DNA of 59,629 nucleotides from NCBI GenBank assembly GCA_016860845.1, contig BOKF01000050.1:1-59629 (forward strand). The letters run 5' to 3'. The notes beneath the pieces are model-generated. The model did not search any database. It was not told the origin of the DNA and was given only the letters and a program-made list of their open reading frames with translations. Numbering within the stretch: the stretch's first letter is position 1; each line of letters opens with the position of its first letter. Made by a program: the position numbers and the translations under genes. The DNA comes from Chloroflexota bacterium. GTDB lineage: Bacteria; Chloroflexota; Anaerolineae; 4572-78; J111. Positions 24 through 56,748 of the stretch are shown here, piece by piece.

Positions 24-125
24 TGATGCGTGATACGTGATGCGTAAGAAATCTTGCCTGGATACCATCACGCATCACGCATTACGTATCACGGACTTTG
101 GATAATTATTTTCTTGGAGTTGCCT
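24..125. repeat. Heptamer hairpin, copy A, with shared 3' flank
   Basis: Positions 29-45 pair with 77-93 at 16 of 17 bases. Both arms are built from 7-bp units of the type TGATGCG/TGATACG. The loop lies at about 46-65. The flank at 88-125 reappears in the same orientation at 55229-55266 (32 of 38 identical), while segment 40-73 reappears reverse-complemented at 55183-55216 (31 of 34). The element sits 84 bp upstream of the E2 start. Nothing else recognisable lies in 1-208, although 135-190 has weak 7-bp periodicity. Confidence 0.85.
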
Positions 126-208
126 TATCTAAAACAAACTACTATCCTGTACCTCTGCTGCTACCTTTATATCCTGCAACCCTGTCACTTTGAAAGGGAG
201 AGTCAGCT

Positions 209-1930
209 ATGACGGAATTTAAGCTACCCGAACTGGGTGAAAATATTCAAGCGGGCGATGTAATCAATGTCCTGGTCTCAGTCGGCGACACGGTTGCCCC
301 CGACCAGCCGGTGCTGGAGCTTGAAACCGACAAGGCAACCGTGGAAGTGCCCTCTTCCGTCGGCGGTGTTGTCCAGGCCGTCCATATCAAGCCCGGCGAC
401 ACCATAAAGGTCGGCCAATTGATTCTGACCTTAGAAGGCAACGGTCCGGCTACCCAGCCGGCAGCCGCGCCCCAAGCTCAGCCAGAGACTCCCCAGCCAG
501 AACCCACACCCGCTGTGCCACCCTCTCCACCGCCGCAGCCTGTAGCGGAAGCCACTCCTCCCCCATCTCCTCAACCTGCCGCTCCTCCAACGCCTGTGAC
601 CATCGAGTTTAAGCTTCCGGATCTGGGCGAAAATATTCAAGCCGGAGATGTCGTCAACGTGCTCGTCTCGGCCGGGGATACGATTGCCGTGGACCAGCCG
701 GTGCTGGAGCTTGAAACCGACAAGGCGACCGTGGAAGTACCCTCTTCGGCAGCGGGTATAGTTAAAGCAATTCATGTCAAAGCGGGTGATACGGTTAAGG
801 TAGACCAGCTCGTTCTGACTCTGGAAGGAACTGAGGCCGTAGCCGCGCCGGTCAGCCAGCCAGCGCCAGCCGCCCAACCACCTGCGCCCGAAGCCGCAGC
901 AGAAGTCGAACCTGAACCAGCACCGGAAGTGGCTGCGCCAGATCAGCCAGAAATTACCCCAGTGGACTCACCGACCCCGGCAGCGCTACCGCCCGCCTTT
1001 TACCGGCCCGACGCCGCCTATAGCTCCGTGCCGGCTGCACCCAACGTGCGGCGGCTGGCCCGTGAAATCGGAATTGAGGTAACCCAGGTGCCAGGCTCGG
1101 GGCCGGGCGGCCGGATTACAATAGCCGATGTTAAAAATTATGCCCGCCAGCGCAATCTAAGTGGACCGACAACCGCCCCTGTCACTCAGGCTGCGGCAGC
1201 GCCTCTGCCCGATTTTAGTAAATGGGGCCAGGTCGAACGGGAAGCGATGAGCAACATCCGCCGTAAAACCGCCGAGCATCTCGGCCAGGCCTGGGCGACA
1301 ATCCCCCACGTAACCCAATTTGCCAAGGCCGACATCGGCGAGTTGGAAGAACTGCGCAAGCGTTTCTCCACAATTGTGGAAGTCTCCGGGGCCAAACTGA
1401 CCATCACGGCTATCCTGCTTAAGGTCGTTACATCGGTGCTCAAGGCTTTTCCCCAATTCAACGCCAGCGTAGACATGGCCAAAAATGAGATTGTTTACAA
1501 GAAGTATTACCATATTGGCGTAGCGGTTGACACGGACCGGGGGCTGCTGGTGCCGGTTATCCGCAATGTGGACCAGAAAAATATCCTCGAACTGGCCGTG
1601 GAATTAAATGAAGTTGCCGAAAAGGCCCGGAATAAAAAGTTAACCCTGGAGGACATGCAAGGCGGCACTTTCAGCATTTCCAACCTGGGTGGCATTGGCG
1701 GCTCCTACTTTACCCCGATCATCAATGCGCCGGAGGTGGCGATTTTGGGCGTGGCCCGGGGCGAAATGGAACCGGTTTACAAAAACGGCCAGTTCGAGCC
1801 TCGGCTGAGGCTGCCACTGGCCCTCTCCTACGACCACCGCCTCATTGACGGGGCCGACGGGGCGCGTTTTCTAAAGGCACTGGTCGAGCACTTGGAACAG
1901 CCATTTTTGACAGCATTACAAGGGTGGTGA
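209..1930 (+). CDS. Dihydrolipoamide acyltransferase (E2) of a 2-oxoacid dehydrogenase complex
   Basis: E2 core of a pyruvate or related 2-oxoacid dehydrogenase complex; it passes the acyl group from E1 to CoA on swinging lipoyl arms. The 573 residues hold two lipoyl domains (about 1-77 and 132-208) with the lipoylation motif ETDKATVEVP at Lys42 and Lys172. A Pro/Ala-rich linker follows each one. A peripheral-subunit-binding domain lies at about 278-312 and the catalytic acyltransferase domain at about 345-573, with the active-site motif DHRLIDG (His543, Asp547). An RBS (GAAAGGGAGAG) precedes the ATG. The two lipoyl domains are almost identical at DNA level around the lysine codon. E1 and E3 genes are not in the window, so the substrate cannot be assigned. 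The family call is secure. Confidence 0.95.
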   Translation: MTEFKLPELGENIQAGDVINVLVSVGDTVAPDQPVLELETDKATVEVPSSVGGVVQAVHIKPGDTIKVGQLILTLEGNGPATQPAAAPQAQPETPQPEPTPAVPPSPPPQPVAEATPPPSPQPAAPPTPVTIEFKLPDLGENIQAGDVVNVLVSAGDTIAVDQPVLELETDKATVEVPSSAAGIVKAIHVKAGDTVKVDQLVLTLEGTEAVAAPVSQPAPAAQPPAPEAAAEVEPEPAPEVAAPDQPEITPVDSPTPAALPPAFYRPDAAYSSVPAAPNVRRLAREIGIEVTQVPGSGPGGRITIADVKNYARQRNLSGPTTAPVTQAAAAPLPDFSKWGQVEREAMSNIRRKTAEHLGQAWATIPHVTQFAKADIGELEELRKRFSTIVEVSGAKLTITAILLKVVTSVLKAFPQFNASVDMAKNEIVYKKYYHIGVAVDTDRGLLVPVIRNVDQKNILELAVELNEVAEKARNKKLTLEDMQGGTFSISNLGGIGGSYFTPIINAPEVAILGVARGEMEPVYKNGQFEPRLRLPLALSYDHRLIDGADGARFLKALVEHLEQPFLTALQGW

Positions 1931-1937
1931 AAAGAAA

Positions 1938-2228
1938 GTGGACGTTAACAAGGTTCTCGCAGGTAAGCGTGAGGCAATCCTAAAAATTGCGGCTCAACAT
2001 GGAGCCAGGAATGTGCATGTCTTTGGCTCAGTGGTGCGCGGTGAGGCCAAGGCTGACAGTGATTTGGATCTCTTGGTAAAGCTTGATCCAGGCCGGAGTC
2101 TCCTTGATCTAATTGCCATTAAACAGGACTTGGAAGACCTGCTCGGCTGTGAGGTAGATGTTGTGACCGAAGCGGCTATTAGTCCTTACATGAAAGAGCA
2201 GGTGCTCAAGGAAGCGGTTAGCCTGTGA
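1938..2228 (+). CDS. mntA: MntA-type minimal nucleotidyltransferase (antitoxin)
   Basis: A 96-residue nucleotidyltransferase of the MNT family, partner of a HEPN toxin. In characterised pairs MntA silences HepT by adding AMP to a tyrosine next to the HEPN active site. The fold signature is visible: GSVVRG at 30-35, then SDLDL with Asp42 and Asp44, and a third acidic residue at Asp74. It starts with GTG 8 bp after the E2 stop, and its stop overlaps the next start (GTGA), so the two are translationally coupled. Its insertion downstream of a housekeeping E2 gene is typical of accessory TA modules. Confidence 0.9.
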   Translation: MDVNKVLAGKREAILKIAAQHGARNVHVFGSVVRGEAKADSDLDLLVKLDPGRSLLDLIAIKQDLEDLLGCEVDVVTEAAISPYMKEQVLKEAVSL

Positions 2229-2569: not shown

Positions 2570-3524
2570 TCTACTCCTCTCTATCGTCATTCCTCACTAC
2601 AACGGCATTTGCCACCTAGCTACCTGCTTCAATGCCCTACGTGCCCAGACTTACCCCTGCCTGGAAATCATCCTGGCCGACAACGGCTCTACTGACGACT
2701 CGGTCGCGCTGACCCGGCGCAACTTTCCTGAAGTCAAGATTTTGGAATTAGGGCGCAACTTGGGCCTGACCGGGGCGATCAATCGGGGCATTGAGCTAGC
2801 CCAGGGAGAGGTGATTGTCCCACTCAACAACGATACCGAGGTCGCCCCCGGCTGGGCGCAGGCGGTGGTTGACACCCTGCACGCCCACCCCGAAGCCGGG
2901 ATTGTCGCCTGCAAGATGCTGCTGTTCGACCAACGTGACACCCTCCATTCCGCCGGCGATGGCTTTGGCGGGGATGGCATCCCCATCAATCGCGGTGTGT
3001 GGCAGAAAGATACCGGTCAATTTGATCGGGATGTCTACATTTTTGGTGGCTGCGGCGGGGCGGTCGCATATCGCCGGGAGATGCTGGCAGATATCGGCCT
3101 GTTTGACGAAGAGCTGTTCATGTACCTGGAAGATGTTGACCTGAACTGGCGGGCGCAACTGGCCGGCTACCGGGCGGTGTTTGCCCCCCAGGCCGTTGTT
3201 TACCATCAGCTCAGCGCCACGGGCGGTGGGGTGATTGCCAGTTTTTACACCGGCCGCAACACCCTTTTCATTCTGGCCAAAGATTTGCCCGGCTCGATTT
3301 TTCGCCGCCACTGGCCGGCTATCGTCGGGGCACAGCTCAAAATTGCCGCTAATGCGCTCCGGGCCTGGCGGGGCGAGGCGGCCCGCGCTCGGCTGCGGGG
3401 GCAATTAGCCGGGTTGTGGGGCCTGCCCCGATGGTTAGCCAAACGAAAGCCGGTGCAGCAAAAGAAGCGGGTGGATGACACTTATATTGCGGGTTTGTTG
3501 ACCAATCATGGACGTGGTGCGTAA
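2562..3524 (+). CDS. Glycosyltransferase family 2
   Basis: A 320-residue GT-A glycosyltransferase of the WbbL/rhamnosyltransferase-like type, likely acting in cell-surface polysaccharide synthesis at the inner membrane face. Visible motifs are the N-terminal SIVIPHYNG, DNGSTDDS near residue 42, the nucleotide-binding LNNDTEV near 88, and the acceptor-side motif MYLEDVDLNWR near 190. The C-terminal 60 residues are basic. The ATG overlaps the hepT stop. The last codons and the stop lie inside a heptamer hairpin (3511-3553), so the extreme C-terminus (HGRGA) is repeat-derived. The acceptor sugar is unknown. Confidence 0.88.
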   Translation: MSNLLLSIVIPHYNGICHLATCFNALRAQTYPCLEIILADNGSTDDSVALTRRNFPEVKILELGRNLGLTGAINRGIELAQGEVIVPLNNDTEVAPGWAQAVVDTLHAHPEAGIVACKMLLFDQRDTLHSAGDGFGGDGIPINRGVWQKDTGQFDRDVYIFGGCGGAVAYRREMLADIGLFDEELFMYLEDVDLNWRAQLAGYRAVFAPQAVVYHQLSATGGGVIASFYTGRNTLFILAKDLPGSIFRRHWPAIVGAQLKIAANALRAWRGEAARARLRGQLAGLWGLPRWLAKRKPVQQKKRVDDTYIAGLLTNHGRGA

Positions 3525-3553
3525 CTAAACGGAACACGCACCACACAACACGT
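3511..3553. repeat. Heptamer hairpin over the glycosyltransferase stop codon
   Basis: Positions 3514-3522 pair with 3536-3544, and the right arm continues in 7-bp steps (CACGCAC, CACACAA, CACGTGG) to 3553. The TAA stop (3522-3524) of the preceding gene is inside the left arm. It is one of the dispersed heptamer arrays of this window. Confidence 0.7.
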
Positions 3554-3573
3554 GGCTTATCTAGGAGGAACTC

Positions 3574-9755: not shown

Positions 9756-10574
9756 TCATTGGGAACGAGATAAAAAGCGGTGAGCCAGAAAAATAGCAGA
9801 GATTCCCCCCAGGGCGATAAGAGATATCCACAAGAGAGCCGGGTAGCTGAAAGCAGCTATTTGGGGATCAGGGGTCAGAGGTCGGGGCTCAGAGGCTAGT
9901 TGGATAGCCGAAGTTATCGTTTTAGAGGGAAGCGGCTCTACTTTTCCAGAGGTTTCAATTTGTTGCTCGGAAGTTCCTTCCATCTGGAGATGAGGGGATA
10001 GGTAAACGGCGCTCAAATCCTGAGACAAGCCTTCCGGTACCGGCAAATCTCTGGCGCCATAGTTTGCTTTGACCAGAAAAATAGTGATTGCCTGGTATTC
10101 GTCGTCAGTTAGCAGGTTGGGCGACCAATAGGGCATTGTAGCTCGGGCGTAAGCATACAAATCCTGAGCCGTGGAAAACTTAGCCAGGGTGTCCGGGCCA
10201 ATAAGGGCCGGGACCTGTTTTGGAAAGGAAAAACCATCGGGGGGATGGTTGGTGGCGTGACACTTGGACTGCCAGCAATTCTGCTTGCCTTCCGGCCATT
10301 CGGCCCGCCATTCAGCGGTGAGGCCCTGGCCTTGATCCCCGTGGCAGGTAGAACACCAGAACTCATAGAGTTTGGCCCCGTCATCAGTAGACGGTAGACG
10401 GCCTGTGTCCGTAAGGGTATAGACGGTAGACGGGGAGGGGAGGATGGAGGGTGGAAGATAGAGGATGGAAGATGGTGAGCGGTCCGCGGACCACGGACCG
10501 TGGTCATCATTTATAGCAAAGGCATTGCCGGTGCAGAGCAGGATAAGTCCAAAGGTAATAATCCAGCGTTTCAC
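9756..10574 (-). CDS. Exported membrane-anchored c-type cytochrome with repeat-derived linkers
   Basis: A cytochrome c protein of 272 residues: signal peptide (1-20), a canonical heme site CSTCH (Cys74-His78), a second CX4CH site CWQSKCH (Cys100-His106), a likely axial Met in RATMPYW, and a C-terminal transmembrane helix (about 243-262) with a short basic tail. It probably carries electrons on the outer face of the membrane. CX4CH heme sites are known in tetraheme cytochrome c3, so a diheme protein is plausible but unproven. Residues about 23-64 and a stretch just before the membrane helix are encoded by heptamer arrays and look like spacers. It lies 22 bp downstream of oppC on the same strand. 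Confidence 0.88.
   Translation of the reverse strand: MKRWIITFGLILLCTGNAFAINDDHGPWSADRSPSSILYLPPSILPSPSTVYTLTDTGRLPSTDDGAKLYEFWCSTCHGDQGQGLTAEWRAEWPEGKQNCWQSKCHATNHPPDGFSFPKQVPALIGPDTLAKFSTAQDLYAYARATMPYWSPNLLTDDEYQAITIFLVKANYGARDLPVPEGLSQDLSAVYLSPHLQMEGTSEQQIETSGKVEPLPSKTITSAIQLASEPRPLTPDPQIAAFSYPALLWISLIALGGISAIFLAHRFLSRSQ
9865..9899. repeat. Heptamer array inside the cytochrome gene, 3' part
   Basis: Five consecutive 7-bp units (GGATCAG, GGGTCAG, AGGTCGG, GGCTCAG, AGGCTAG) run in register. They are read in frame as the Pro-rich linker before the membrane anchor. Confidence 0.8.
10385..10504. repeat. Heptamer array inside the cytochrome gene, 5' part
   Basis: About 17 consecutive 7-bp units are in one register, falling into three word groups: CGGTAGA/TAGACGG, GGATGGA/AGATAGA, and CCGCGGA/CCACGGA/CCGTGGT. 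The array encodes the region between the signal peptide and the first heme site without breaking the frame. Confidence 0.85.
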
Positions 10575-11702: not shown

Positions 11703-11822
11703 GATTTTAGATTTTAGATTTTGGATTTTGGACTATCCCTTCAAGCGAGGGTTTTGGATCTTAGCCATCATCCCAATCGCAGATCGTCCTAAAGGATACC
11801 CTTGCGGTATAAATCTAAAATC
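11703..11822. repeat. Heptamer array and inverted arm between oppB and oppC
   Basis: Nine 7-bp steps from 11703 (GATTTTA twice, GATTTTG twice, GACTATC, CCTTCAA, GCGAGGG, TTTTGGA) are followed by an inverted arm TAAATCTAAAATC at 11810-11822. The block 11724-11758 matches 31888-31922, inside glycerate kinase, at 29 of 35 bases in the same 7-bp register. Confidence 0.8.
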
Positions 11823-12839: not shown

Positions 12840-12854
12840 AAAATCTCTCCAAAA

Positions 12855-12914
12855 CGTGTTGCGTGTTGCGTCTTCCGTTCAATTGAATCTCGACAAGACG
12901 CAACACGCAACGCG
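12855..12914. repeat. Heptamer hairpin between a binding-protein gene and oppB
   Basis: Arms 12855-12874 and 12895-12914 pair at 19 of 20 bases with a 20-nt loop; the units are GTGTTGC. It lies in the intercistronic gap of the transport cluster, where such a stem could stabilise or attenuate mRNA (inference). Confidence 0.85.
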
Positions 12915-12923
12915 AAAGACAAA

Positions 12924-14801: not shown

Positions 14802-14878
14802 GGTGCGTAAAACGTAATAGTCACTTATCTAAAGCAATTTTACCTTCCACCATTACGTTTTACGTTTCACGTTTTATG
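14802..14878. repeat. Heptamer hairpin upstream of binding protein 1
   Basis: CGTAAAACGTAAT (14806-14818) pairs perfectly with 14852-14864. The right arm continues in 7-bp steps (TTTACGT, TTCACGT, TTTATG). It lies between oppF and the binding-protein gene, in a 256-bp gap with no other recognisable element. Confidence 0.8.
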
Positions 14879-14997
14879 TCTTTCCTCGACGCCTCCTTTC
14901 TGCGTTTCTCAGTATAACCGACAAAAGCGCCCAAGTTTAGTGATAAAAATCCTCACTTAACAGGACAAATGACACATAATCGCTGGTTCCCCATACC

Positions 14998-17168: not shown

Positions 17169-17224
17169 GTGAAACCTGAAATGTATTAGGTGTTGCGCAG
17201 CACGTGAAACCTGCAACTTGCTCC
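17169..17224. repeat. Heptamer array after binding protein 2
   Basis: Eight consecutive 7-bp units are in register (GTGAAAC, CTGAAAT, GTATTAG, GTGTTGC, GCAGCAC, GTGAAAC, CTGCAAC, TTGCTCC). It ends 5 bp from the stop codon of the binding-protein gene. Confidence 0.75.
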
Positions 17225-17229
17225 TTGTT

Positions 17230-19232: not shown

Positions 19233-19934
19233 GTGCAAACATTGGATTGCTCTATGTCTATCCGCCAATTTGTCAGCGAATTAATCACGCAAGCAAAGAG
19301 GACTGCGCCCCAAGAGTTGGACTGGTTAGTCGCGCAGGTCAGTTCTGCTCCTTTTGCTGAGGACCTCCTGGAAGTTGACGAGCCGCTGTGGGGTGGCTTC
19401 TGGCAGGGGGATGTCATCGCGCCCGGCTACAGCCTGCCCGCCGTCGAGCTGGCCCTGCTTCGGGCCATCCGTCTCGACGGGACCTGGCCGGAAGGAACCT
19501 CTATCCCTCAATTCCTGGCCGATTTACAGCAAGCCATCTCCGACCCGCACGCCGGGGTCTGGGTGCTGGCGGTAGCCGGTGAGCCGTGTGTGGCCTTTGT
19601 TTCACGCGGTCAGTCGTCGGCGGTCGGCGGTCAACCCCTGGCGACGGTAGTCTGGTACTGCGCCACGACGGAACGGCTGCATGCCGGGTATCGAACCCCT
19701 CTTGAGACCTTGAATTTTAGCGGGGCAGTTGAGCAGCGTCCCCTTACCTTTTTAGATAGCCGGCCACTTGGAAGTGCATCCCACCAGGACAGTCAAAGTC
19801 AATCAAGCTGGCTGGAGCAAGCAACGGAACAGGTTAAAATTGGCAGCGGTCAGCCGTCTGCGGTCGGCGGTCCTGGCCTGGCCGCCCGGTTAGACACCGA
19901 GATTTTGCGGCTGCGTTTTACTTCTTCAAAATAA
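19233..19934 (+). CDS. Protein of unknown function containing two GGCGGTC-type repeats
   Basis: A 233-residue predicted soluble protein that I do not recognise. It has no signal peptide or membrane helix. An alternative ATG at 19254 (MSIRQFVSEL) is equally possible, and no convincing RBS precedes either. The middle region is Trp- and Pro-rich. Two heptamer arrays (19607-19634 and 19847-19874) are translated in frame as near-identical GQSSAVGG and GQPSAVGG segments. A TAGAAT at about 19219 could be a -10 box. Codon use resembles the neighbours, so it is probably a real gene. Confidence 0.65.
   Translation: MQTLDCSMSIRQFVSELITQAKRTAPQELDWLVAQVSSAPFAEDLLEVDEPLWGGFWQGDVIAPGYSLPAVELALLRAIRLDGTWPEGTSIPQFLADLQQAISDPHAGVWVLAVAGEPCVAFVSRGQSSAVGGQPLATVVWYCATTERLHAGYRTPLETLNFSGAVEQRPLTFLDSRPLGSASHQDSQSQSSWLEQATEQVKIGSGQPSAVGGPGLAARLDTEILRLRFTSSK
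19607..19634. repeat. GGTCGGC-type heptamer array, copy 1
   Basis: Four 7-bp units are in register (CGGTCAG, TCGTCGG, CGGTCGG, CGGTCAA), translated in frame. Related arrays lie at 19847, 49749 and 56721. Confidence 0.75.
19847..19874. repeat. GGTCGGC-type heptamer array, copy 2
   Basis: CGGTCAG, CCGTCTG, CGGTCGG, CGGTCCT: the same gene and reading frame as copy 1, 240 bp downstream. Confidence 0.75.
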
Positions 19935-23443: not shown

Positions 23444-23450
23444 GGTATCA

Positions 23451-29348: not shown

Positions 29349-29380
29349 TTATTAACAAAGGTGCATTTCATCGAGAAATC

Positions 29381-29461: not shown

Positions 29462-29491
29462 CGAGAAATCTAAGGCTTCGCGTTTTACATT

Positions 29492-30807: not shown

Positions 30808-30835
30808 TAATAGTCAATAATCAATGGACAATAGC
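30808..30835. repeat. Heptamer array between glycerate kinase and glycosyltransferase
   Basis: TAATAGT, CAATAAT, CAATGGA, CAATAGC fill the whole gap between the two minus-strand genes. Confidence 0.7.
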
Positions 30836-30836
30836 T

Positions 30837-32201
30837 TTACCCGACCAAAATAAAAGTCAGGTCGTTGACATTGGTGTTGGTTGGCCCGGTTAGAATCAGG
30901 TCATCCAGGGCGGCAAAGAAATTATACGCATCGTTGCGCTGCAGGTACTCTACGGGCACTAAACCTATGGCTTGTGCTCGGCCAACGGTTTGGCCGTCGG
31001 CAAAAGCGCCGGCGGCATCGGTCGGACCATCGCTGCCGTCGGTGCCGAAACAGGTGATCAAGAGGTTAGACCAACCAGCCAGAGCCAGAGCTGCGGCTAA
31101 GGCCATTTCTTGATTACGCCCCCCGCGACCATGCCCCCGGAGAGTCACCGTCGTTTCGCCACCCAGAACCAGGCAAGCTGGACGCAGGAGGGAACCTTCG
31201 TCGCGGGCCAGCCCTTTGGCCAGAGCGGCGATAACTTTGCCGACCTCTCGCGCTTCACCTTCTAAAAAAGTGGTTAATAAGCGGGCCTCAAATCCAGCCT
31301 GCTGGGCCGCCTTGACCGCCGCCTGGGCGGCCAGCCGATTACTGCCAATGATAATATTGTGAACCCGTTCGAAAATCAAGTCACCCGGTTTGGGCGTGTC
31401 AGCTACTTCAGCGGCAAGGCCCGCTCGAAGCCGCCGGATGACTGCCTCAGGCAGCGTATGCTGAAGCTGAAATTGTTCCACAATGGCCCAGGCATCGGCA
31501 AAGGTTGTGGGGTCGGGCACGGTTGGCCCGGAGGCAATTACTTCCAACGGGTCGCCGACGACATCCGACAGGATCAGGGCGTAAACATTGGCAGGAGCAG
31601 CTATTTGAGCCAGCCGCCCGCCTTTGACAGCGGACAGATGTTTGCGGAGGGTATTGACCTGGTTGATGGTCGCTCCGGCCGCCAGCAGAGCCGTGGTGGC
31701 GGCTTGCAGATCGTTCAAGGTCAGCGGCTCGGCCGGGAGAGTCAGCAGGGCAGACCCGCCGCCTGAAATCAGGCAAATGATGGTATCGTCCGGCCCGGTT
31801 TCCCGGAGTAGGCTCGCTATTTCTTGGGCTGCCCGCAAACCGGCCTCGTCTGGAATGGGATGTCCGGCCTCCACGACAAAGATTTTAGATTTTGGACTGC
31901 CCCTTCGGGCGTGGATTTTGGATTTTGGAGAGGCATAGCCATACTTGACGATGACGTGGCCGGTTGTAATTTTGTCGCCAAAAATTTCCTCGATTGCTGC
32001 GGCCATCGGCGCGCCGGCTTTGCCGGCCCCAACGACGATGAGCCGGCCCGATGTTGCCTTGATCTGGCTGATGAGATCAGGCCGGCTGCCAAAGTAATTT
32101 TTGACGGCAGCCGCCGGCTCTACTGCTTCCAGCGCGGCGCGGATCATTTGCCAGGCAACCTGGCGGAGGTCACCAGAGAGAGCAGATGGGGGCGTATTCA
32201 T
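30837..32201 (-). CDS. Glycerate 2-kinase (DUF4147/MOFRL type) with in-frame repeat insertion
   Basis: A class II glycerate kinase of 454 residues that phosphorylates D-glycerate to 2-phosphoglycerate. Motifs include VVGAGKAGAPMAAAIEE (about 57-73), FVVEAGHPIPDEAG, CLISGGGSALL, and the C-terminal MOFRL segment ending TNTNVNDLTFILVG. An 18-residue segment (SPKSKI...SPKSKI) between VKYGY and FVVEAGHP is not expected in the family and is encoded by a heptamer array (31881-31934). It sits in the surface region just before the active-site strand. The start overlaps the stop of the upstream binding-protein gene by 4 bp (ATGA). Confidence 0.92.
   Translation of the reverse strand: MNTPPSALSGDLRQVAWQMIRAALEAVEPAAAVKNYFGSRPDLISQIKATSGRLIVVGAGKAGAPMAAAIEEIFGDKITTGHVIVKYGYASPKSKIHARRGSPKSKIFVVEAGHPIPDEAGLRAAQEIASLLRETGPDDTIICLISGGGSALLTLPAEPLTLNDLQAATTALLAAGATINQVNTLRKHLSAVKGGRLAQIAAPANVYALILSDVVGDPLEVIASGPTVPDPTTFADAWAIVEQFQLQHTLPEAVIRRLRAGLAAEVADTPKPGDLIFERVHNIIIGSNRLAAQAAVKAAQQAGFEARLLTTFLEGEAREVGKVIAALAKGLARDEGSLLRPACLVLGGETTVTLRGHGRGGRNQEMALAAALALAGWSNLLITCFGTDGSDGPTDAAGAFADGQTVGRAQAIGLVPVEYLQRNDAYNFFAALDDLILTGPTNTNVNDLTFILVG
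31881..31934. repeat. Heptamer array inserted in glycerate kinase
   Basis: Units GATTTTA, GATTTTG, GACTGCC, CCTTCGG, GCGTGGA, TTTTGGA, TTTTGGA are in register. The array shares a 35-bp block with 11724-11758 (29 of 35). It is read in frame as a repeated SPKSKI peptide. Confidence 0.85.
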
Positions 32202-36313: not shown

Positions 36314-36400
36314 GCTTTATTTACTCTTTCTAGTTTCGGATAAGGTCATATTAACACAATCACTGCCGGGGGGCAATTTGGGCAGGAGGCAGCCAAAGAG

Positions 36401-36455
36401 TAGCCAGTTATCAGTAGTCAGAAAATGCTAAGGTCTGGTTACTGGCTACTGGCTA
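36401..36455. repeat. Heptamer hairpin in the glgB upstream region
   Basis: Left arm TAGCCAG, TTATCAG, TAGTCAG (36401-36421), right arm CTGGTTA, CTGGCTA, CTGGCTA (36435-36455), loop 13 nt. It is the main feature of the 308-bp gap 36314-36621, which otherwise holds a promoter and a small palindrome (36497-36514). Confidence 0.85.
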
Positions 36456-36520
36456 CTCAAATTACTCTTCTTAGAACAAATTAGCGTAGGGATTGCGTAG
36501 GCTAAATCGCCTACTTATAG

Positions 36521-37244: not shown

Positions 37245-37262
37245 GTTACCTAAATCAGGGTT

Positions 37263-37297
37263 TGACAATTGACAATTAACTGTGGACCACTAATAAT
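37263..37297. repeat. Heptamer array upstream of the UbiE/MenG gene
   Basis: TGACAAT, TGACAAT, TAACTGT, GGACCAC, TAATAAT in register. It ends 9 bp before the start codon, leaving no room for a normal RBS. Confidence 0.65.
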
Positions 37298-43812: not shown

Positions 43813-43820
43813 AAAGAGAC

Positions 43821-43908
43821 GAAGACGCGAAGACGCTAGGAAGCGAAGAAATCAAAACCTACTCACCGCTTCGCGTCCCTACTCCCTACTCCCTACTCCC
43901 TACTCCCT
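43821..43908. repeat. Heptamer array abutting a start codon
   Basis: The left part (GACGAAG, ACGCGAA, GACGCTA, then GAAGCGAAG) faces an inverted CGCTTCGCGTC at about 43867-43877. Then four perfect tandem ACTCCCT units (43881-43908) end 1 bp before the ATG at 43910. Confidence 0.9.
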
Positions 43909-44935: not shown

Positions 44936-44953
44936 CGTGATTTAGGAAAAAGC

Positions 44954-49698: not shown

Positions 49699-49748
49699 GA
49701 ATATCAAGAAGGCCTTATATCCCCGTAATCTCTGCTGCTACACTGTTC

Positions 49749-49776
49749 GGTGGTCGGCGGTCAGACGTCGGCAGTC
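49749..49776. repeat. GGCGGTC-type heptamer array, copy 3
   Basis: GGTGGTC, GGCGGTC, AGACGTC, GGCAGTC: 26 of 28 bases match the array at 56721-56748. It lies 4 bp downstream of the glyQS stop. Confidence 0.85.
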
Positions 49777-49779: not shown

Positions 49780-52700
49780 CTAAAACCCTTGCAGTTCGCT
49801 GAAATCAGCATACCCTTTGGTCAAATCCCGAATATCCTGCAACAGCGCCAGCCGGTTTTGCCGTACCGCCATATCTTCATCCATGACCAAGACCGCCTCA
49901 AAAAAGGCATTGATCGGCTTGACCAGGATTTCGCGCAGCGCGCCAATCACCGCGGCCATCGTGGAGGCCGGGGTCAGGCTGGCCCGAGCCTGTTGGTAGG
50001 CGGCGTACAGCTCTTTTTCTGCCGGGACAGCGAATCGGCCGGGCTGAACCGTATTACGCTCCTCGACACCCCGCACAATCCGCACGCAGCGGGCATAGGC
50101 GTTCAAGGTCTGCTGCCAATCGGCGCGAGCCGTCGCCTCGGCCAGGTCACGGGCAGCAGCCAGGGCCAGCCAGGGGTTGTCGCCGCGCTCAGCCAGGACC
50201 GCCTGCACCACATCGTGTGGCAGATGGTAATCCTCTTTCAAGACCCCTTCCAGCCGCCGTTTGATAAACTCGCCCGTTTCCGCCAGGGGCTCACTGGAGA
50301 CTTCGACCGGCATCAGCGCCGCTGCCAGCTTTAGCCCCTCGTTAAGGTTGAAATTGGTTTCCGTTTCTAACAAATTAGTGACCAAGGCCAGCCCATCTCG
50401 GCGCAGGGCAAAGGGATCGGCGGAGCCGGTCGGCGCTTTGCCGACGGCAAACAGGCCGCACAGACTGTCGAGCCGGTTGGCCAGGTTGAGGACCAAGCCG
50501 GGCCGGCTGATTTTCTCATGCGGCAGCTTAGTCTGAGGATAGTAATGCTCGACAATCGCCGCGGCGACGGCCTCGCTCTCACCGGAATGCTTGGCGTATT
50601 CATAGCCCATAATGCCCTGCAAGCTGGTCAGTTCGACCACCATGTGGGTCGCCAGGTCTGCTTTGCTCAAATGGGCGGCCCGCTCAACCGTTTTTATTTC
50701 TGCGCCAGTCAGTTGCAGCCGCTCGCCAATTTGCGGAGCCAGCCTTTCCAGGCGCTTGCTCTTATCCAGCATCGAACCGAGCTTCTCCTGGAAGGTCAAC
50801 GTATCCAGACGCGGCAAAAACTCTTCCAGCTTCTTTTCGGTATCCGCTTTGAAGAAGAATTCGGCGTCGGCATAGCGCGCCCGCAGTACGCCTTCATTGC
50901 CCCGGCGCACCATGTCGAGGTGCTCTTTGCCGCCGTTACGCACGCCAATAAAATATGGCAGTAGGGACGAGCTGTCAGCTTGTCCTACCACCGGGAAGTA
51001 ACGCTGGTGTTTTTTCATCACCGTAGTCAGCACCGGCTGAGGCAGGTCGAGGTACTTTTCCTCAAAATGTCCCAGGAAGGCTGTCGGCTGCTCGACCAGA
51101 TGAGTCACTTCTTCCAACAAAGCCGGCTCGTCCGGGACCTGCCCGCCAGCCTGGGCAGCGATAAGTTCGAGCTGCTGTTTGATTTCAGCGCGGCGGGCAG
51201 CGGGGTCAACCGAAACCCGGTGCGTGCTCATCGTCGTCAGGTAGGAGGTGGCGCTGGCAATCTCGATGTCGGGCGATCCCTCGGGGCGCAGGCCGCGTGT
51301 CACCCGCCCGCTGCTCAAACCGGCGTAGTCAAAGGGGATAACCTGATCTCCCAGGAGCGCGACCAGCCAGCGAATGGGCCGGCTGAAGGTTGTTTTGGCC
51401 ACGCTCTCGCCCACCTGGGCCGAGGCCAGCCAGCGCATAGACTTGCCAAAGCTGATGCTGCGAATGAAATCGGGCAGGGCATCGGCCAGTGCTTCCAGCG
51501 TGGGGCGGCCTGCGGTGCGCACCGCAGCGACAACATACTGGCCCCCCTCCATATCACGGACCTCCAGGGCTGACACGTCTACCCCTTTGCTGCGGGCAAA
51601 GCCCTGGGCCGCTTTGGTCGGCTTGCCTTCGGCGTCGAAGGCTACTTTAACCGAGGGGCCGCGGGCGATTTCCTCCAAATCTTGCTGGCGGGGAGCCAGG
51701 CCTTCCACCAGAACGACCAGGCGGCGCGGCGTCCCCAAAACCCGCAGGCTGTCGTAGCTCAGGCGCAGGTTGGCCAAGAATTTCGGCGCAGCCTCCTGCA
51801 AATAAGCCAGCGCATCGGTCACATCGTGGGAGGGCAATTCTTCGGAGCCGATTTCTAGCAAAAAGGGTGCGGGAACATCAGTTTTCTTGCTGTTGACTAT
51901 CTTCGATCCACTATCTTCTATCTTCCGCTCTGGCATATACTTCAATAACGGAAAGCCCGCCTTCTCCCGCTGTTCCACAAACGCTTTGGCCACATCGTGC
52001 GACATGCGGCGCATGCGGGCGAAGTAGCCGGCCCGTTCGGTCACGCCAATCGCCCCCCGCGTGTCGAGGATGTTGAAAGCGTGGGAACATTTGAGCACGT
52101 AGTCGTGGGCCGGGATGACCAGGCCGTGAGCCAGGCAGCGCTTGGCCTCGGCTTCGTAAAAATTGTAGGCGGCCTTCAGCCCCTCGACATCGGCCACATA
52201 AAAATCGTACTCGCAGTGCTCGATCTCCTGGCGTAATAAGATGTCGCCATAGGTCTGACGGCCGTCCCAGTCAATGTCCCAGACTCGCTCCACGCCTTGC
52301 AGATACATAACAATGCGCTCCAGGCCGTAGGTCAGCTCGACGGCCACGGGGTCGAGCGGGAAGCCGCCGGACTGCTGGAAGTAGGTGTACTGGGTGATTT
52401 CCATCCCATCCAGCCAGACTTCCCAGCCCAAGCCCCACGCGCCCAGGGCTGGGCTTTCCCAGTTGTCTTCGACAAAGCGGATATCGTGCTCCTCCCGCTT
52501 GAGGCCGAGGGCCAAGAGGCTGTTGAGGTACAGCTCCTGCGGGTTGCCGGGATCGGGCTTGAGGATGACCTGATACTGGTGGTGCATCTGCATGCGGTTG
52601 GGGTTTTCGCCAAAGCGGCCGTCGTCGGGCCGGAAGGAGGGCTCGACATAGCCGACCAGCCACGGCTCCGGCCCCAGCACCCGCAGAATTGTGCCGGGGT

Positions 52701-52833: not shown

Positions 52834-52909
52834 AGGACACAGATGAACACAGATTTCACAGATTAAAATAAATTAGAAAATCTGTGTTTATCTGTGCAAT
52901 CTGTGTCCT
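52834..52909. repeat. ACACAGAT inverted repeat
   Basis: Left arm 52834-52864 and right arm 52879-52909, each with three degenerate CACAGAT words, inverted to each other with a 14-nt A/T-rich loop. Its right edge includes the stop codon of the GxxExxY remnant. Confidence 0.88.
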
Positions 52910-53070
52910 ATTTTCTTATCCAGGCTAAAGAGCCTTTGCGTTCGTTGTCGTAAGTTTTGCGTTTGGTTTCGGCTTTGAGGCCGAAGTTGAGCAGCAGGCC
53001 AACTTCAATGGTGGTGGCCTTGAGATAGTTAAGTAACTGCGCTTCGGTTGCTGCTTGCCAATCAATAGAT
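52908..53070 (-). pseudogene. 3' fragment of a GxxExxY-family gene
   Basis: On the minus strand a frame different from that of the helicase fragment reads EAQLLNYLKAT, EVGLLLNFG and KRKTYDNERKGSLAW, then TAG at 52910-52908. This is the C-terminal part of GxxExxY proteins (normally about 120-140 residues). The N-terminal two-thirds is missing, replaced by helicase sequence. The family function is unknown. Confidence 0.75.
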
Positions 53071-53635
53071 TTCTACAGCCATAGGCCGGCGCATGATGGG
53101 CTTCATCTAATATGACAAACAATCCTGTCTGTCTGCAATGCTCGATGAACTTTCCGAATTTGGTTATCTTTGTATGACCGTAATTATCCAGAGCGTCGGT
53201 ATAAAGGTTCTTAATAGCCGTTTGTGTCGTCATTATGACAATATCATCAGTCGTTGGCTCAATTGAAGAAACATTGTCATGGGCAGGGTTGCTTGAAACT
53301 AATCTGATATTCAGAGTTTTTCTTGACTCCGGTATCCATTTGGCATATTTGCAAAATTCATCAAAAGCCTGATTCAGCAGATAAAATGAATGAGCAAGCC
53401 AGAGAATTCTTAAATTTCGCGGAAGGGCATTATCACATAGCCATTTTACAGCAGTAAAAGTTTTGCCAGCACCGGTAGGCAACACCAAAAGTCCACCTCT
53501 GAACCTGTTATCGTTAATGGTGAAAACTCGACTAAGGGCTTCAAAAGCATCAATCTGGTGTTGAAATGGCTCTTTTGGTAACCGGTCTTGATCTTTTTTC
53601 CTAATATCGTTGAGGTCAAGTGGATAGTAACCCAT
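53069..53635 (-). pseudogene. Truncated superfamily 2 helicase / restriction-type ATPase
   Basis: About 190 residues of a DEAD-like helicase: QHQIDAFEAL (Q-motif region), Walker A LVLPTGAGKT, motif Ia, and motif II ILDEAHHA. The homologous sequence stops just after AYGCRN and runs into the GxxExxY fragment, so the second RecA lobe is gone. The open frame continues to 52925 through foreign sequence. It is lower in GC than its neighbours, which suggests acquisition from elsewhere. Probably non-functional. Confidence 0.8.
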
Positions 53636-53662
53636 TGGTAAACCTCCGTGCAGTCATTTCTT

Positions 53663-54238
53663 TTAACCCTCCCACTCCACCCGCTGATACACCCGGCTCA
53701 ACGGTATCTCCACGCCAACCGACTCCAGCATCAGCACCCCCTCCAAGTTATTGAATTCGGTTAGCAGCCAGCGGCCATCCTCCAACTTGTGAAAATACTC
53801 TACGTGAACGCGGGACTGGTCAACCAGCACATAATCTTGGAGAGTCTCAACCGCCCGGTAAAACTCGAATTTTGCGCCCCGATCGTAGGCTTGGGTTGAT
53901 TCTGATAAAACTTCAAAAATCACAACCGGGTTGGTAATTGTATCGGTTCGCCCCTTGACGTACTCAATCCGGCCACACACGATCATCACGTCAGGGTAGG
54001 TGTATAAGCTATTTTTCCTGACATGCAGACGCATATCAGTGACAAAGGTTTCACAGGGCTTACCTTCGAGGGCCGCATCCAAGGTGATTATCAGATTCTT
54101 GATAATGCGATTGTGATTAGCCGACCCGCCGGACATCGCAAAAATTTCACCACGGTAATATTCACTGTGATAATCCGCCGTTTCCTCCAAAGCCAGATAT
54201 TCTTCGGGGCTGTAGCGTTTCTGTGGCTGGGCGACCAT
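53663..54238 (-). CDS. Uma2-family putative endonuclease (DUF820)
   Basis: A PD-(D/E)XK-fold protein of 191 residues. The start YSPEEYLALEETADYHSEYYRGEIFAMSGGSANHNRI is typical. The catalytic pattern is YPDVMIVCG, then VIFEVLSEST, then DRGAKFEFYRAV (Asp, Glu, Lys). Uma2 proteins are abundant in Chloroflexota and cyanobacteria; their substrate is not established. It lies just upstream of the helicase remnant, suggesting an accessory pocket. Confidence 0.92.
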   Translation of the reverse strand: MVAQPQKRYSPEEYLALEETADYHSEYYRGEIFAMSGGSANHNRIIKNLIITLDAALEGKPCETFVTDMRLHVRKNSLYTYPDVMIVCGRIEYVKGRTDTITNPVVIFEVLSESTQAYDRGAKFEFYRAVETLQDYVLVDQSRVHVEYFHKLEDGRWLLTEFNNLEGVLMLESVGVEIPLSRVYQRVEWEG

Positions 54239-54251
54239 TTAGCTCTCCTAT

Positions 54252-54294
54252 CGTGATGCGTAAGAATAACAATCCTCACGCATCACGCATCACG
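54252..54294. repeat. Heptamer hairpin overlapping the recO 3' end
   Basis: Left arm CGTGATGCGTAAG (54252-54264). The right arm (54274-54294) is three CGTGATG-type units on the minus strand. The recO stop (54285-54283) and its last residues KRDA are read from the right arm. Confidence 0.8.
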
Positions 54295-55059
54295 TTTCAC
54301 GCCTTCTCTTTTTAACTGCCGCAAAAACTCCGCGCTCTTTAACCGCCGTTCGAGTAGGAAGGTGATGTAATTAAACAGCAGGCTTTCGACGTGCTGCCGC
54401 GTGGCCGGGGTAAGCTGCAACTTGGCAATCTTCTCCCATGGCTCCGTTTGCAGGTAGCGCAGCACTTTGAGCACCGGCAGGGGCAGCGGCTCGGCGTTGG
54501 GACGAGCTTCGCCGTGCCGGGGGCAGAGCGCGCCGCCATCTACAAAGTGGAAAAAGTTAGTCACCGGCTCCAAGGCTTCGCCGCAGGCCACACAGAAGTG
54601 AAGCTGCGGCTGAAAGCCGGTCAAGCTGAGCAAGTGCAGCTCAAAATAACGCAGGGCCAGGAAGGGATCGTCGGAGTGGCTGAGATGAGCCAGGGTCAGC
54701 GTCAGCAGTTGAAACAAAGGCGCGTTGGCATCGTGCTCCTCGGTGAAGCGATCCACCAGTTCGGCCAGGTAGTAGGCGTGGCTGGTCTTCTCCAAATCTT
54801 CGCGCAAATCCCGGTACGGCTCGACAATTTCGGCCTGGGAAATAATGTCCCAGGTGCGTCCCTGGGCCACCAGCATATCGGTCAGCATAAACAGCTCGAC
54901 ATGCCCTGCTTTGCGGCTAGTCGTTTTGCGGACACCTTTGGCCAGCAAGCGCAGTTTGCCGCGTTCCGGGGTCAACACGGTTAGCAGCCGGTCGGCCTCG
55001 CCAAAGTCGCTGCGGCGTAGAATGACAGCATCGGTACGGTAAAGACGTTCATTAGCCAT
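54283..55059 (-). CDS. recO: DNA repair protein RecO
   Basis: A recombination mediator of 258 residues that loads RecA and anneals strands with RecF/RecR. It has an N-terminal OB fold (YRTDAVILRRSDFGEADRLLTVLTPERGKLRLLAKGVRK), a helical domain, and a zinc-type cluster CVACGE...ALCPRHG near 150-180. The C-terminal few residues come from a heptamer array. Standard length. Its promoter region (55060-55170) contains no clear elements. Confidence 0.96.
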   Translation of the reverse strand: MANERLYRTDAVILRRSDFGEADRLLTVLTPERGKLRLLAKGVRKTTSRKAGHVELFMLTDMLVAQGRTWDIISQAEIVEPYRDLREDLEKTSHAYYLAELVDRFTEEHDANAPLFQLLTLTLAHLSHSDDPFLALRYFELHLLSLTGFQPQLHFCVACGEALEPVTNFFHFVDGGALCPRHGEARPNAEPLPLPVLKVLRYLQTEPWEKIAKLQLTPATRQHVESLLFNYITFLLERRLKSAEFLRQLKREGVKRDA

Positions 55060-55170
55060 AAGCAGGAATTATACTCTGGGCAGGGGGGATGAGCAAGGAT
55101 AATGTAATTAGTCCCGGTTTAGGTTACGGGTGATTTGACAAGCACCTAAAAATGATATTTACTTTCCGAC

Positions 55171-55266
55171 ATGATACGTAATGCGTGATGGCTTCCAGGT
55201 AAGATTTCTTACGCATCACGTACCACGCATCACAGATCTTGGATAACAATTTTCTTGAAGTTGCCT
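55171..55266. repeat. Heptamer hairpin, copy B, with shared 3' flank
   Basis: The left arm (about 55171-55190) and right arm (about 55209-55233) use the same TGATGCG/TGATACG words as copy A. The loop segment 55183-55216 is the reverse complement of 40-73 (31 of 34), but the flank 55229-55266 matches 88-125 directly (32 of 38). It ends 19 bp before the ROK-like gene. Confidence 0.85.
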
Positions 55267-55285
55267 GAGCTACAAGGAACCGACG

Positions 55286-56671
55286 ATGACCTTTCATCTG
55301 GCGAAACCCAAACTGGTCCCCCCGCTCGACCAGGACTTCTGCCCGGCAGTTTTAGCCAACCACGCCTTTACCCAGGAGGTTGAAGAGGCGGGTGTGCCGT
55401 TGGTGATGGGTCTGGAGCGGGCCGACGGCAGTGTATCTCGTTTTGAGACCAGGGTTTTTCCTGACCATCACCCCCGCGCCGAAGCCAATCTGATGTATGT
55501 CGAGCGACTGCTTAAATTTCTGCTCTGGCAGCGCGGCGGCTGGAAGGTTTATGTCGGCGGCCCCCCATCCGTTGGGCATTATCTCAAACAATGTTATGCT
55601 CCTGAAGGCGCTCGTTCATTCGATTTTCACTTTATGGGCGAGAGTGTTTACCAAAAACCCTTCACCGTAGTTGAGTGCGCTGCGGCTGACGTCCCGGCTG
55701 AAAAGGAAAGCGAGCAAGCTTTAGGCCGGCACCTGGAAGGATGCCGCATCGGCTTTGATTTAGGCGCATCCGATCTCAAGATAGCGGCTGTGGTTGACGG
55801 GCAAGCCATCTTTAGCGAGGAGATTGTCTGGGAGCCGCGCCGGCAGACCGACCCGCACTATCACTACCATCACATTATGGCCGCTCTGAAACTGGCCGCA
55901 TCGAAAATGCCCCGCGTAGACACCATTGGGGGCAGTTCAGCCGGGGTCTATATCAATAATCGGGCCATGGTCGCTTCCCTCTTTCGCGGTATTCCCCCGG
56001 ATCGGTTTGATGAGGTCAGAAACATGTTCCTGCGCATTCGTGAAGAAATGGGCGTGCCTTTGGAGGTTGTCAACGACGGCGAGGTCACCGCTCTGGCCGG
56101 CTCGATGTCGCTGGAGGATAATGCGATTCTGGGGATCGCCCTGGGATCGAGCGAGGCGGCGGGTTATGTCACGCCCCAGGGCAACATTACCGGCTGGCTC
56201 AACGAATTGGCCTTTGCGCCGGTTGACTACAGCCCCGCCGCTCCTGTTGACGAATGGTCGGGTGACAGAGGCTGCGGCGCGCTTTATTTCTCGCAGCAGT
56301 GTGTCTTTCGCCTGGCCCCTAAGGTGGGGCTTGAGCTGCCCAACGATCTAACCGACGCCGCCAAGCTCAAGCTGGTCCAGGAAAAACTTGAAGCAGGACA
56401 CGCCGGGGCGAGACAAATCTGGCAGAGTATGGGCTGCTACCTGGGCTATGGTATTGCCCACTACGCCGACTTTTACCCGTTGAAGCACGTCCTTATCTTG
56501 GGCCGCTGCACTTCAGGCAGCGGCGGTCCCCTGATGCTGGCCGGGGCCAATGAAGTCCTGGCGACAGAGTTCCCCGAATTGGCCCGGCAAATCAATCTGC
56601 ACCTGCCGGACGAAAAGAGCCGGCGGGTGGGGCAATCCATCGCCGCCGCCAGCCTGCCAGCACTCAGCTAA
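55286..56671 (+). CDS. ROK-like sugar kinase/actin-fold protein
   Basis: A 461-residue protein with an N-terminal module of about 140 residues I do not recognise, followed by an actin-like ATPase fold. The phosphate-1 loop is CRIGFDLGASDLKIAAV (about 152-168), the sugar/Asp region is EVVNDGEVTALAG, and the phosphate-2-like segment is AILGIALGSSEAAGYV. This resembles ROK kinases, but the typical CXCGXXGC zinc motif is missing. Followed 96 bp later by a PIG-L deacetylase. Amino-sugar metabolism is a reasonable guess. Confidence 0.75.
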   Translation: MTFHLAKPKLVPPLDQDFCPAVLANHAFTQEVEEAGVPLVMGLERADGSVSRFETRVFPDHHPRAEANLMYVERLLKFLLWQRGGWKVYVGGPPSVGHYLKQCYAPEGARSFDFHFMGESVYQKPFTVVECAAADVPAEKESEQALGRHLEGCRIGFDLGASDLKIAAVVDGQAIFSEEIVWEPRRQTDPHYHYHHIMAALKLAASKMPRVDTIGGSSAGVYINNRAMVASLFRGIPPDRFDEVRNMFLRIREEMGVPLEVVNDGEVTALAGSMSLEDNAILGIALGSSEAAGYVTPQGNITGWLNELAFAPVDYSPAAPVDEWSGDRGCGALYFSQQCVFRLAPKVGLELPNDLTDAAKLKLVQEKLEAGHAGARQIWQSMGCYLGYGIAHYADFYPLKHVLILGRCTSGSGGPLMLAGANEVLATEFPELARQINLHLPDEKSRRVGQSIAAASLPALS

Positions 56672-56720
56672 AGGTGTGTTCACGCGCCTGTGGCACGCCA
56701 CCAACAATGAAAATCCTTTT

Positions 56721-56748
56721 GGCGGTCGGCGGTCAGCCGTCGGCAGTC
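56721..56748. repeat. GGCGGTC-type heptamer array, copy 4
   Basis: GGCGGTC, GGCGGTC, AGCCGTC, GGCAGTC, in the gap between the ROK-like and deacetylase genes. 26 of 28 bases match 49749-49776. Confidence 0.85.

Follow-up and report, generated by a model that had tools for sequence, protein, structure and literature searches.

The window, i.e. the whole 59,629-bp stretch of contig BOKF01000050.1 (assembly GCA_016860845.1, forward strand), carries short tandem arrays of degenerate 7-bp units (heptads), part of which are paired with inverted arms and can be drawn as hairpins. When genome contigs were searched for the window's fused glycyl-tRNA synthetase, Anaerolineales and other Chloroflexota assemblies were returned, and the host, judged from this protein, is an Anaerolineales bacterium of the phylum Chloroflexota. 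The nearest relatives by synthetase identity (best segment) are H5_CFX7 (94%; hereafter G001) and H5_CFX5 (87%; G002), which serve as the reference relatives and are both collinear with the window across almost its full length. G001 and G002 were placed in one genus, to which the window would also belong according to the 94 and 87% identity, and a third genome, G004, in the family of those two; all three are labelled as metagenome assemblies. Synteny is absent between G001 C1 1-320 kb and G002 C1 1-300 kb. Genes and spacers are assigned throughout from our own hexamer-model gene calls. The arrays of the window, with their state in the two relatives, are as follows.

24..93: heptad hairpin TGATGCG / CGCATCA, 5' of a 2-oxoacid dehydrogenase acyltransferase gene; loop and tail common to 55171 and two G002 loci
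3511..3551: weak array of a dispersed hairpin family with the loop ...AACGGAAC and the arm word GTGGTGC
9864..9883: weak GGTCAGG-type lag-7 array within a called gene; in reduced form in G001
10387..10499: GTAGACG, GGAGGAT and GCGGACC arrays in a called gene; words and unit number differ in G001 and G002, and at 10449 one 7-nt unit is missing from G001
11703..11732: GATTTTA/GATTTTG array in an operon spacer, unchanged in G001; a TTTACGA hairpin takes its place in G002
12855..12917: GTGTTGC hairpin in an operon spacer; same word in G001, GTGGTGC in both arms in G002
14806..14882: TTACGTT array with an inverted arm; both G001 and G002 retain the word
17169..17227: weak, degenerate TGAAACG-type units; 21 nt more in G001, a TTAGAAA hairpin in G002
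19616..19632: GTCGGCG array in a called gene; G002 has a TTCAACG array here
19844..19872: CAGCGGT array, also within that gene
30809..30825: weak TCAATAA-type array; a five-unit array in G001, an AATTGTG-type array in G002
31880..31929: ATTTTGG units flanking a small hairpin in a called gene; units read ATTTTCG in G001
36398..36458: AGTAGCC/AGTCAGT hairpin with 7-nt indels relative to G001; a CAGTAAT hairpin in G002
37262..37280: TTGACAA array (score 9.5), same in G001
43820..43908: 8-bp CGAAGACG array, followed by TCCCTAC x4.7, which stops one base before a start codon; the CCCTACT array (43876) is unchanged in G001, and G002 has CCTACTG/CCTACTA at the site
49744..49762: weak GGTCGGC-type array
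51896..51925: CTATCTT array inside the glycyl-tRNA synthetase gene, where it falls in the stretch linking the alpha to the beta domain
54252..54301: GTGATGC hairpin that G001 carries in identical form; a GTGACAC-type array in G002
55171..55233: TGATACG-type hairpin of weak score; no array in G001; loop homologous to that of the array at 24
56721..56748: GGCGGTC array, missing from G001; G002 has weak GTAATCA-type units

Periodicity was measured lag by lag with a score for ungapped identity of the sequence to itself (match +1, mismatch -1.5), called the lag score below. At scores of at least 8, 9, 10 and 12, the window holds 19, 16, 14 and 9 lag-7 segments, respectively, whereas 30 dinucleotide shuffles average 1.27, 0.57, 0.33 and 0.03. 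With a score of at least 10, lag 8 yields three segments and lags 5, 6, 9, 10, 11, 12 and 13 yield 0-2 each; the multiples lag 14 and lag 21 give four each and lag 15 gives three. The commonest period according to Tandem Repeats Finder is 7 as well. The 7-bp arrays described in the initial annotation are thus real, but its statement that they saturate the window is too strong: arrays scoring at least 8 take up 0.82% of the sequence and 4.2% of its intergenic bases. Nor do they keep a strict register, since 8- and 15-bp units are also present. One hairpin (23442-23534) is itself built of 15-bp (7+8) GTAGCAG/TTGCTACTCTGCAAC-type units, with one 15-bp unit fewer in G001.

A local rescan (135 bp) of 19 positions, the 18 noted before and 56721, gave lag-7 scores of at least 10 at 11 of them (24, 10385, 11703, 12855, 14802, 19607, 31881, 36401, 43821, 54252 and 56721). 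The other eight (3511, 9865, 17169, 30808, 37263, 49749, 51893 and 55171) score 6.0-9.5 and are individually unconvincing, although some have other backing: 3511 is a member of the dispersed loop family, 55171 has the same loop and tail as 24, and arrays are found in relatives at 17169 and 30808 and in the synthetase linker at 51893. Five of the rescanned positions lie inside called genes (9865, 10385, 19607, 31881 and 51893).

The same period prevails beyond the window, as a comparison of long genome stretches with shuffled sequence, of the kind proposed by the initial annotation, indicates. At a score of at least 12 and with simple repeats dropped, the window has nine lag-7 segments, and 400-kb samples of G001 and G002 have 30 and 63 (15.1, 7.5 and 15.8 per 100 kb); lag-8 segments number one, nine and 15, and those of other lags between 5 and 13 only 0-3; one shuffle of each set gave 0-1. 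A larger scan found 49 lag-7 arrays in 480 kb and 22 in a further 320 kb of G001, and 159 in 800 kb of G002. They are mostly intergenic (36/49 and 11/22 in G001, 108/159 in G002, 6/9 in the window), with an intergenic share of 12 and 16% in the two G001 regions, 19% in G002 and 11% in the window. On two G004 contigs, lag 7 reaches 14.6 and 11.4 per 100 kb, lag 8 only 3 and 0, and 78 other loci, when pooled, give 54, 23, 14 and 16 segments at lags 7, 8, 9 and 12, and 0-5 at lags 5, 6, 10, 11 and 13. Lag 7 is also the commonest lag on a Trichormus variabilis plasmid, but at 3.6 per 100 kb and with one heptad hairpin, and 100 kb of Escherichia coli K-12 yielded no segment at any lag from 5 to 13.

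Many different words are found under the leading lag of 7, which agrees with the earlier view of an architecture with a preferred period rather than of one repeated sequence. These words are not independent of each other, however. Of 71 array words from G001, 44 occur exactly in G002, compared with 5.7 for letter-shuffled words (maximum 10 in 40 runs); 14/54 are shared with G004 (shuffled 3.9, maximum 8), 9/54 with the other loci (3.0, maximum 7), and none of 13 with the Trichormus plasmid. Judged by these matches, the words form a common vocabulary, which thins out with distance, and some hairpins are scattered copies with a single loop.

At kept sites, the words turn over, as the initial annotation had proposed. 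An array scoring at least 7 is found at the corresponding place for 8/12 window arrays with collinear flanks in G001 and 10/12 in G002, and for 15/18 G001 arrays in G002. The mean distance to the nearest word is 0.5 between window and G001, 2.6 between window and G002, 2.33 from G001 to G002 and 2.83 from G002 to G001, with 3.6-3.67 for a control that takes a single random array where the sites take the nearest one. Of 50 orthologous spacers, nine have arrays in both genomes, three in G001 only, ten in G002 only and 28 in neither (odds ratio 8.4, p=0.005), and spacers with an array in G002 only are a median of 53 bp longer there. Indels between window and G001 are most commonly 7 nt long near arrays (5/23), compared with 1/39 elsewhere (p=0.023). 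Taken together, the aligned sequences indicate that words change while sites often persist.

This comparison also bears on the trivial explanation that the arrays are artefacts of assembly or binning, for which the metagenomic label of G001, G002 and G004 might speak. The arrays at 11703, 43876 and 54252..54301, however, are unchanged in G001, the hairpin at 12855 has the same word there, and translated synthetase linkers are free of stop codons, arrays included. The recurrence of arrays in G001 renders assembly error, which the initial annotation had considered, unlikely as a general cause, and we regard the probability of an artefact as practically negligible.

Pairing of the arms, the second feature claimed earlier, holds for a part of the arrays. 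Stems scoring at least 10 occur in 5/11 window, 7/34 G001 and 31/69 G002 arrays, compared with 0, 1 and 0 in one shuffle of each array; among the 19 rescanned positions, eight have a stem of at least 8. Folded as DNA, six stretches of the window gave z values from -1.50 (55165-55222) to -6.97 (12850-12920). Within the arms, identity in register amounts to 0.852, as opposed to 0.825 after shuffling of units (standard deviation 0.006, maximum 0.841 of 200).

The arms are furthermore polar. Among the 80 stems between genes that have heptad arms, 71 have a G-rich and four a C-rich 5' arm, with five tied (53:2 in G002, 12:1 and 4:1 in the two G001 regions, 2:0 in the window), whereas stems lacking heptads give 156:117 when pooled (98:66 in G002, 34:26 and 16:22 in G001, 8:3 in the window). 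Counted by word family, the bias is seen too: among 78 hairpins, with those of the window excluded because they repeat those of G001, 18/20 word families have a G-rich 5' arm and two the opposite. It recurs in the other loci (24:4 for heptad stems vs 90:79 for other stems), at least one of these stems (L019) being a G-run. In the 5' arm, A likewise exceeds T in G001 and G002. As the 5'-arm measure is equal on both strands for a paired stem, skews caused by replication or transcription cannot account for the polarity.

These properties have to be set against plain replication slippage of heptamers, where no fold-back occurs and inverted arms stem from chance or from old palindromes. Heptameric repeats are described as over-represented in many bacteria and have been tied to the size of the DNA in the polymerase active site (PMC4692102), and 7-nt indels are what slippage would produce. 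It does not account for the stems in excess of shuffled arrays, for the 71:4 polarity or for the in-register covariation of a variable base described below, and as a complete explanation we consider it highly unlikely.

Covariation between arms, a comparison suggested in the initial annotation, could be followed in a dispersed family in which hairpins with GTGTTGC-type arms have a common loop. The loop pattern CGTAAANNNAACGGAACACGC (at most two mismatches) has 38 matches in G002, ten in G001, two in G004, one in G003 and none in the other eight of 12 family genomes; the reversed CGTAAANNNAACGGAACACGC used as a control has none in G001-G004 and four in total in two other family genomes. A looser match gave 43 distinct copies, some of them doubtful, and both arms were recognisable in 23, the other 20 being too far from the consensus. 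In these 23 copies, the variable seventh base pairs with its partner in register in 16, compared with 9.1 after re-dealing (p=0.0016), and that of the next unit in 15 (expected 9.9, p=0.012); one unit off register, the p values are 0.17 and 0.11. Over all 43 copies, 0.602 of 903 cells pair in register vs 0.553 after re-dealing (standard deviation 0.013). These data suggest that the arms change together by word and partly by unit, so the expected covariation is present but only partly in register.

The same family invites another explanation, namely that these are small mobile hairpins of the REP/REPIN type, moved single-stranded by a Y1 (HUH) transposase or another enzyme, with the tandem units being secondary. 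Its dispersal, the loop and tail that the arrays at 24 and 55171 share with G002 loci, a clean insertion at one of seven aligned sites, the words common between genomes and the Y1 domains in G001, G002 and G004 are all in line with mobility. Conserved hairpin sequence is dispersed, however, for the AACGGAAC-loop family and a few others, and most arrays share neither flanks nor loops: with heptads masked, 88/236 array regions fall into 33 clusters, and among the 12 clusters listed, many joins are orthologues or neighbours. There are 20 word families as opposed to three Y1 matches in G002. Two of these three Y1 genes were inspected and neither has a heptad hairpin directly beside it, as the first lies amid non-heptad palindromes with heptad arrays about 1.1 kb off and the second has heptad hairpins at 2-3 kb. 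No conserved foot tetranucleotide was recognised by eye around the loop family, and the 7-bp period and the 7-nt indels are left unexplained. Mobility as the general cause is therefore judged unlikely. Two observations in G002 belong to this context: a Y1 transposase gene at C1:373500-376000 adjoins several non-heptad REP-type palindromes, and three near-identical GCGAATG hairpins with common flanks (341925, 514279 and 799654) form a longer dispersed repeat.

The position of the hairpins relative to genes is uneven. Spacers of 30-1200 bp contain 73 heptad hairpins, of which 56 lie in co-directional, 13 in divergent and four in convergent spacers, out of 715, 176 and 139 such spacers surveyed. 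The convergent share (4/73) is below that of other stems (67/274, p=0.00014), and in co-directional spacers the hairpin starts a median of 11 nt past the upstream stop codon (at most 12 nt in 30/56). The loop family differs, with 5/18 placed copies in convergent spacers. A run of at least five T in the next 8 nt follows 5/56 heptad hairpins and 19/161 other stems in co-directional spacers, i.e. there is no excess, which together with their scarcity in convergent spacers led us to reject transcription terminators. A transcription-direction bias of the loop family is likewise rejected, since its 20 loci are distributed over spacers of the types ++ (8), -- (5) and +- (5), with two undecided, and show no clear strand preference.

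The preference for co-directional spacers close behind a stop codon, the scarcity in convergent ones and the conserved presence of arrays at sites could also be understood if the arrays were functional RNA elements of operon spacers (messenger RNA (mRNA) stabilisers, translational uncouplers or regulator sites) maintained by selection. Mismatches argue otherwise: in transcript orientation, 42 are GU and 35 AC (p=0.49), so nothing indicates that pairing is maintained at the level of RNA, and selection on pairing at the RNA level was rejected as a cause. In addition, four of the 12 window arrays lack a counterpart in the closest relative, the loop family is neither rare in convergent spacers nor oriented, and an arm polarity that is the same on both strands does not need a direction of transcription. 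Similar arrays moreover occur within coding linkers, as described next, and selection for RNA function appears quite unlikely. A known RNA family can be dismissed for the window, where Rfam gave no match at gathering score.

In the window, the Pfam domains of the glycyl-tRNA synthetase span residues 7-284 and 318-875, and the array at 51896-51925 lies between them. Of 80 such glyS loci (one labelled Latescibacterota, one Entotheonella, the others Chloroflexota or its groups), 23 have a lag-7 or lag-8 array (score at least 9) in this linker, compared with a mean of 0.54 and a maximum of two in 50 runs of shuffled linkers; the 23 include those of G001 (L004) and G002 (L005) as well as L023, a C-rich low-complexity stretch. 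At a score of at least 10 and for lags 7 and 8 together, the linkers have 25 arrays over 9,489 bases and the rest of the sequence 23 over 231,568 bases, a 26-fold difference in density. Linkers measure about 100-150 nt and are of similar length with (120 nt) and without arrays (118 nt). Their words vary among genomes, AATCTCC being recurrent, and several (L025, L034, L018 and L066) contain hairpins with a purine-rich 5' arm. Their occurrence in a coding linker is hard to reconcile with a general regulatory role as RNA.

The explanation that we consider best, and hold to be somewhat more probable than the sum of its competitors, is a DNA-level process in which slippage in steps of 7-8 nt is combined with template switching upon fold-back, and some finished hairpins spread. 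Slippage plus templated arm correction, as put forward in the initial annotation, fits the 7-nt indels, the mirror order of the arms and the partial covariation in register. Sequence would be gained and lost in steps of about 7, less often 8 nt, a pattern seen in the alignments, turning a short word into a tandem array. The 3' end of the purine- and G-rich strand would then fold back and be extended or corrected on itself, which would create an inverted arm that repeats the words in mirrored order. Unit variants would spread along the array and to the paired unit, as the observed patterns suggest, so that words change in concert while period, place and pairing stay. Finally, some finished hairpins with a conserved loop would be copied to new sites, a step that a few families exhibit. 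Arrays would persist where an insertion does little harm, i.e. in short operon spacers and disordered protein linkers. RNA-DNA hybrids, from which quasi-palindrome mutations in transcribed yeast DNA are reported to be able to start (PMC3820800), could tie the process to operon spacers, a link that is our own.

A number of points weigh against this combination of slippage and fold-back. All evidence is comparative; that the purine-rich strand folds back to be extended or corrected, and that a 7-8-nt ruler exists, is our inference, and slippage of the ordinary kind would not by itself single out a length of 7. The cut-offs of the lag score and the heptad fraction of 0.6 were chosen during inspection of the data. 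In G004, lag 8 is not the runner-up and the polarity is weak (9:3). Of 57 hairpins, 18 pair better one or two units off register and two equally well, and much of the pairing is due to the shared word alone. In the loop family, covariation of the sixth base is seen in as well as off register; with the arms of the 43 copies moved by one unit in the direction of the loop, 0.626 of 602 cells (other columns) pair, no lower a share than in register; the best of 1000 re-dealings reaches 0.606, above the observed 0.602, and for the 19 better copies 0.784, above 0.782. These copies are paralogues, and the permutations ignore their kinship. Persistence of sites is weaker in the reverse direction, with arrays in G001 for only 23/48 G002 arrays with collinear flanks and any stem in G001 for only 10/20 G002 hairpins, some of them unrelated, and the word-distance control favours low site values because nearest arrays are compared with one random array. 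The rarity in convergent spacers is left unexplained by tolerance and does not hold for the loop family.

Several candidates for a contributing activity were rejected. Reverse transcriptase does not appear to be required, as the metagenome assemblies contain one match in G001, one in G002 and none in G004 despite a like density of arrays. Ku, and with it end joining, had no match in any of these three assemblies, and a permissive loss of SbcCD or MutS is contradicted by SbcD and MutS1 in all three. By inspection, several words lack a self-complementary tetramer, and the notion that every word makes a stable 7-nt mini-hairpin was dropped. A more far-reaching form of the slippage and fold-back model, offered here tentatively and as possible rather than probable, would be that a replication or repair activity widespread in Chloroflexota, equipped with a 7-8-nt ruler, preferentially folds back the purine-rich strand and keeps writing, re-wording and repairing these hairpins. 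It would thereby make part of the intergenic DNA and of disordered linkers, that of glyS included, with words drifting as an inherited vocabulary and the architecture imposed by the enzyme.

Other repeats and insertions lie among the arrays of the window. A hairpin of CACAGATT-type units of about 10-12 bp (52838-52906), also found in G001, represents a second repeat class of other spacing. An 83-bp inverted-repeat insertion (29380-29462) is absent from G001, is flanked by the direct repeat GAGAAATC and resembles a miniature inverted-repeat transposable element; an insert of about 140 bp (44798-44937) with the inverted repeats CATGTCATTCTGAACG / CGCTCAAAATGACATG is not in G001 either. Between glyS and a Uma2-type gene, the sequence at 53046-53670 is unlike that of G001. 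A coding 16-bp repeat, CCTCCTCGCCTCTTCG, is present in 2.2 copies at 37622-37658, with indels of 8 and 37 nt relative to G001 just ahead of it.

The short tandemly repeated repetitive (STRR) sequences of heterocystous cyanobacteria consist of heptanucleotides. The likeness to them drawn in the initial annotation is apt, as here as there a 7-nt unit occurs above chance and mainly between genes; the host, however, is a chloroflexote, and arm polarity, arm covariation and arrays in coding linkers are on the side of Chloroflexota. One Calothrix strain is described with three heptanucleotide words, and Nostoc intergenic DNA with an excess of heptamers (PMC4692102). Degenerate heptanucleotide repeats in the Nostoc tRNA-Leu intron pair as a hairpin, change in copy number and fall into classes (PMC3488679), but these concern one locus and an intron RNA, whereas the Chloroflexota arrays are genome-wide and extend to protein-coding linkers. 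TAACTGA direct repeats were reported from Beggiatoaceae, Cyanobacteria and Bacteroidetes, many of them upstream of start codons (MacGregor, 2015; PMC4679880); between two Cyanothece strains, their indels are mostly 7-nt increments, and roles as mRNA stabilisers, translational uncouplers or regulator binding sites were proposed (PMC4679880). As far as described there, that system has one favoured word, related heptamers that are rarely repeated and one inverted repeat in the main genome, in contrast to the many words and many hairpins of Chloroflexota; TAACTGA does not appear in the lists of the commonest array words of five sets. The GGGNATC heptamers of Xanthomonas and Nostoc are intergenic, sometimes paired as inverted repeats and variable between close relatives (PMC4692102). 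They represent, in that account, one G-rich word with quadruplex potential, whereas the arrays here do not depend on a word.

REP elements and REPINs with their RAYT transposases are likewise dispersed intergenic hairpins (PMC3116915), but are portrayed as fixed sequence groups tied to a RAYT gene, as opposed to 20 word families and a 7-bp period. Template switching, or quasi-palindrome correction, makes reverse-complement arms and can fix pairing, and an intrastrand switch that copies the 5' base was offered for an excess of G-C over C-G in RNA stems (PMC8794818). The G-rich 5' arm fits this idea in kind; the stems of that study, as far as it reports them, are those of RNA genes in which U-A exceeds A-U, whereas here the arms are made of tandem units and A exceeds T in the 5' arm. 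Repeats of archaeal Borgs are described as fast-evolving and independently arising, with a composition bias, and as located between genes and in disordered protein stretches (PMC9879509). They are given as direct, near-perfect copies with in-gene units divisible by three, and no 7-bp rule was found in the parts of that source on which this comparison draws. A prior description of heptad repeats in Chloroflexota was not found in the open-access literature; one survey of prokaryotic repeats covers Chloroflexi, and its main text does not contain the term 'heptanucleotide', while its supplements may hold counts (PMC4060949).

Heptanucleotide repeats as such are hence already known; new are the G-rich polarity of the 5' arm and the glyS linker arrays with differing words. 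That bacteria have heptameric repeats in excess was noted before, with polymerase slippage given as a hypothesis only (PMC4692102), and the Chloroflexota arrays provide three handles on this excess: a 7-nt step of recent indels, the polarity of the arms and the arrays that lie within an essential enzyme's coding linker, where an explanation by regulatory RNA is not readily applicable. If fold-back is true, both sides of a stem could change together without selection on RNA, which warns against taking covariation as a proof of RNA function.

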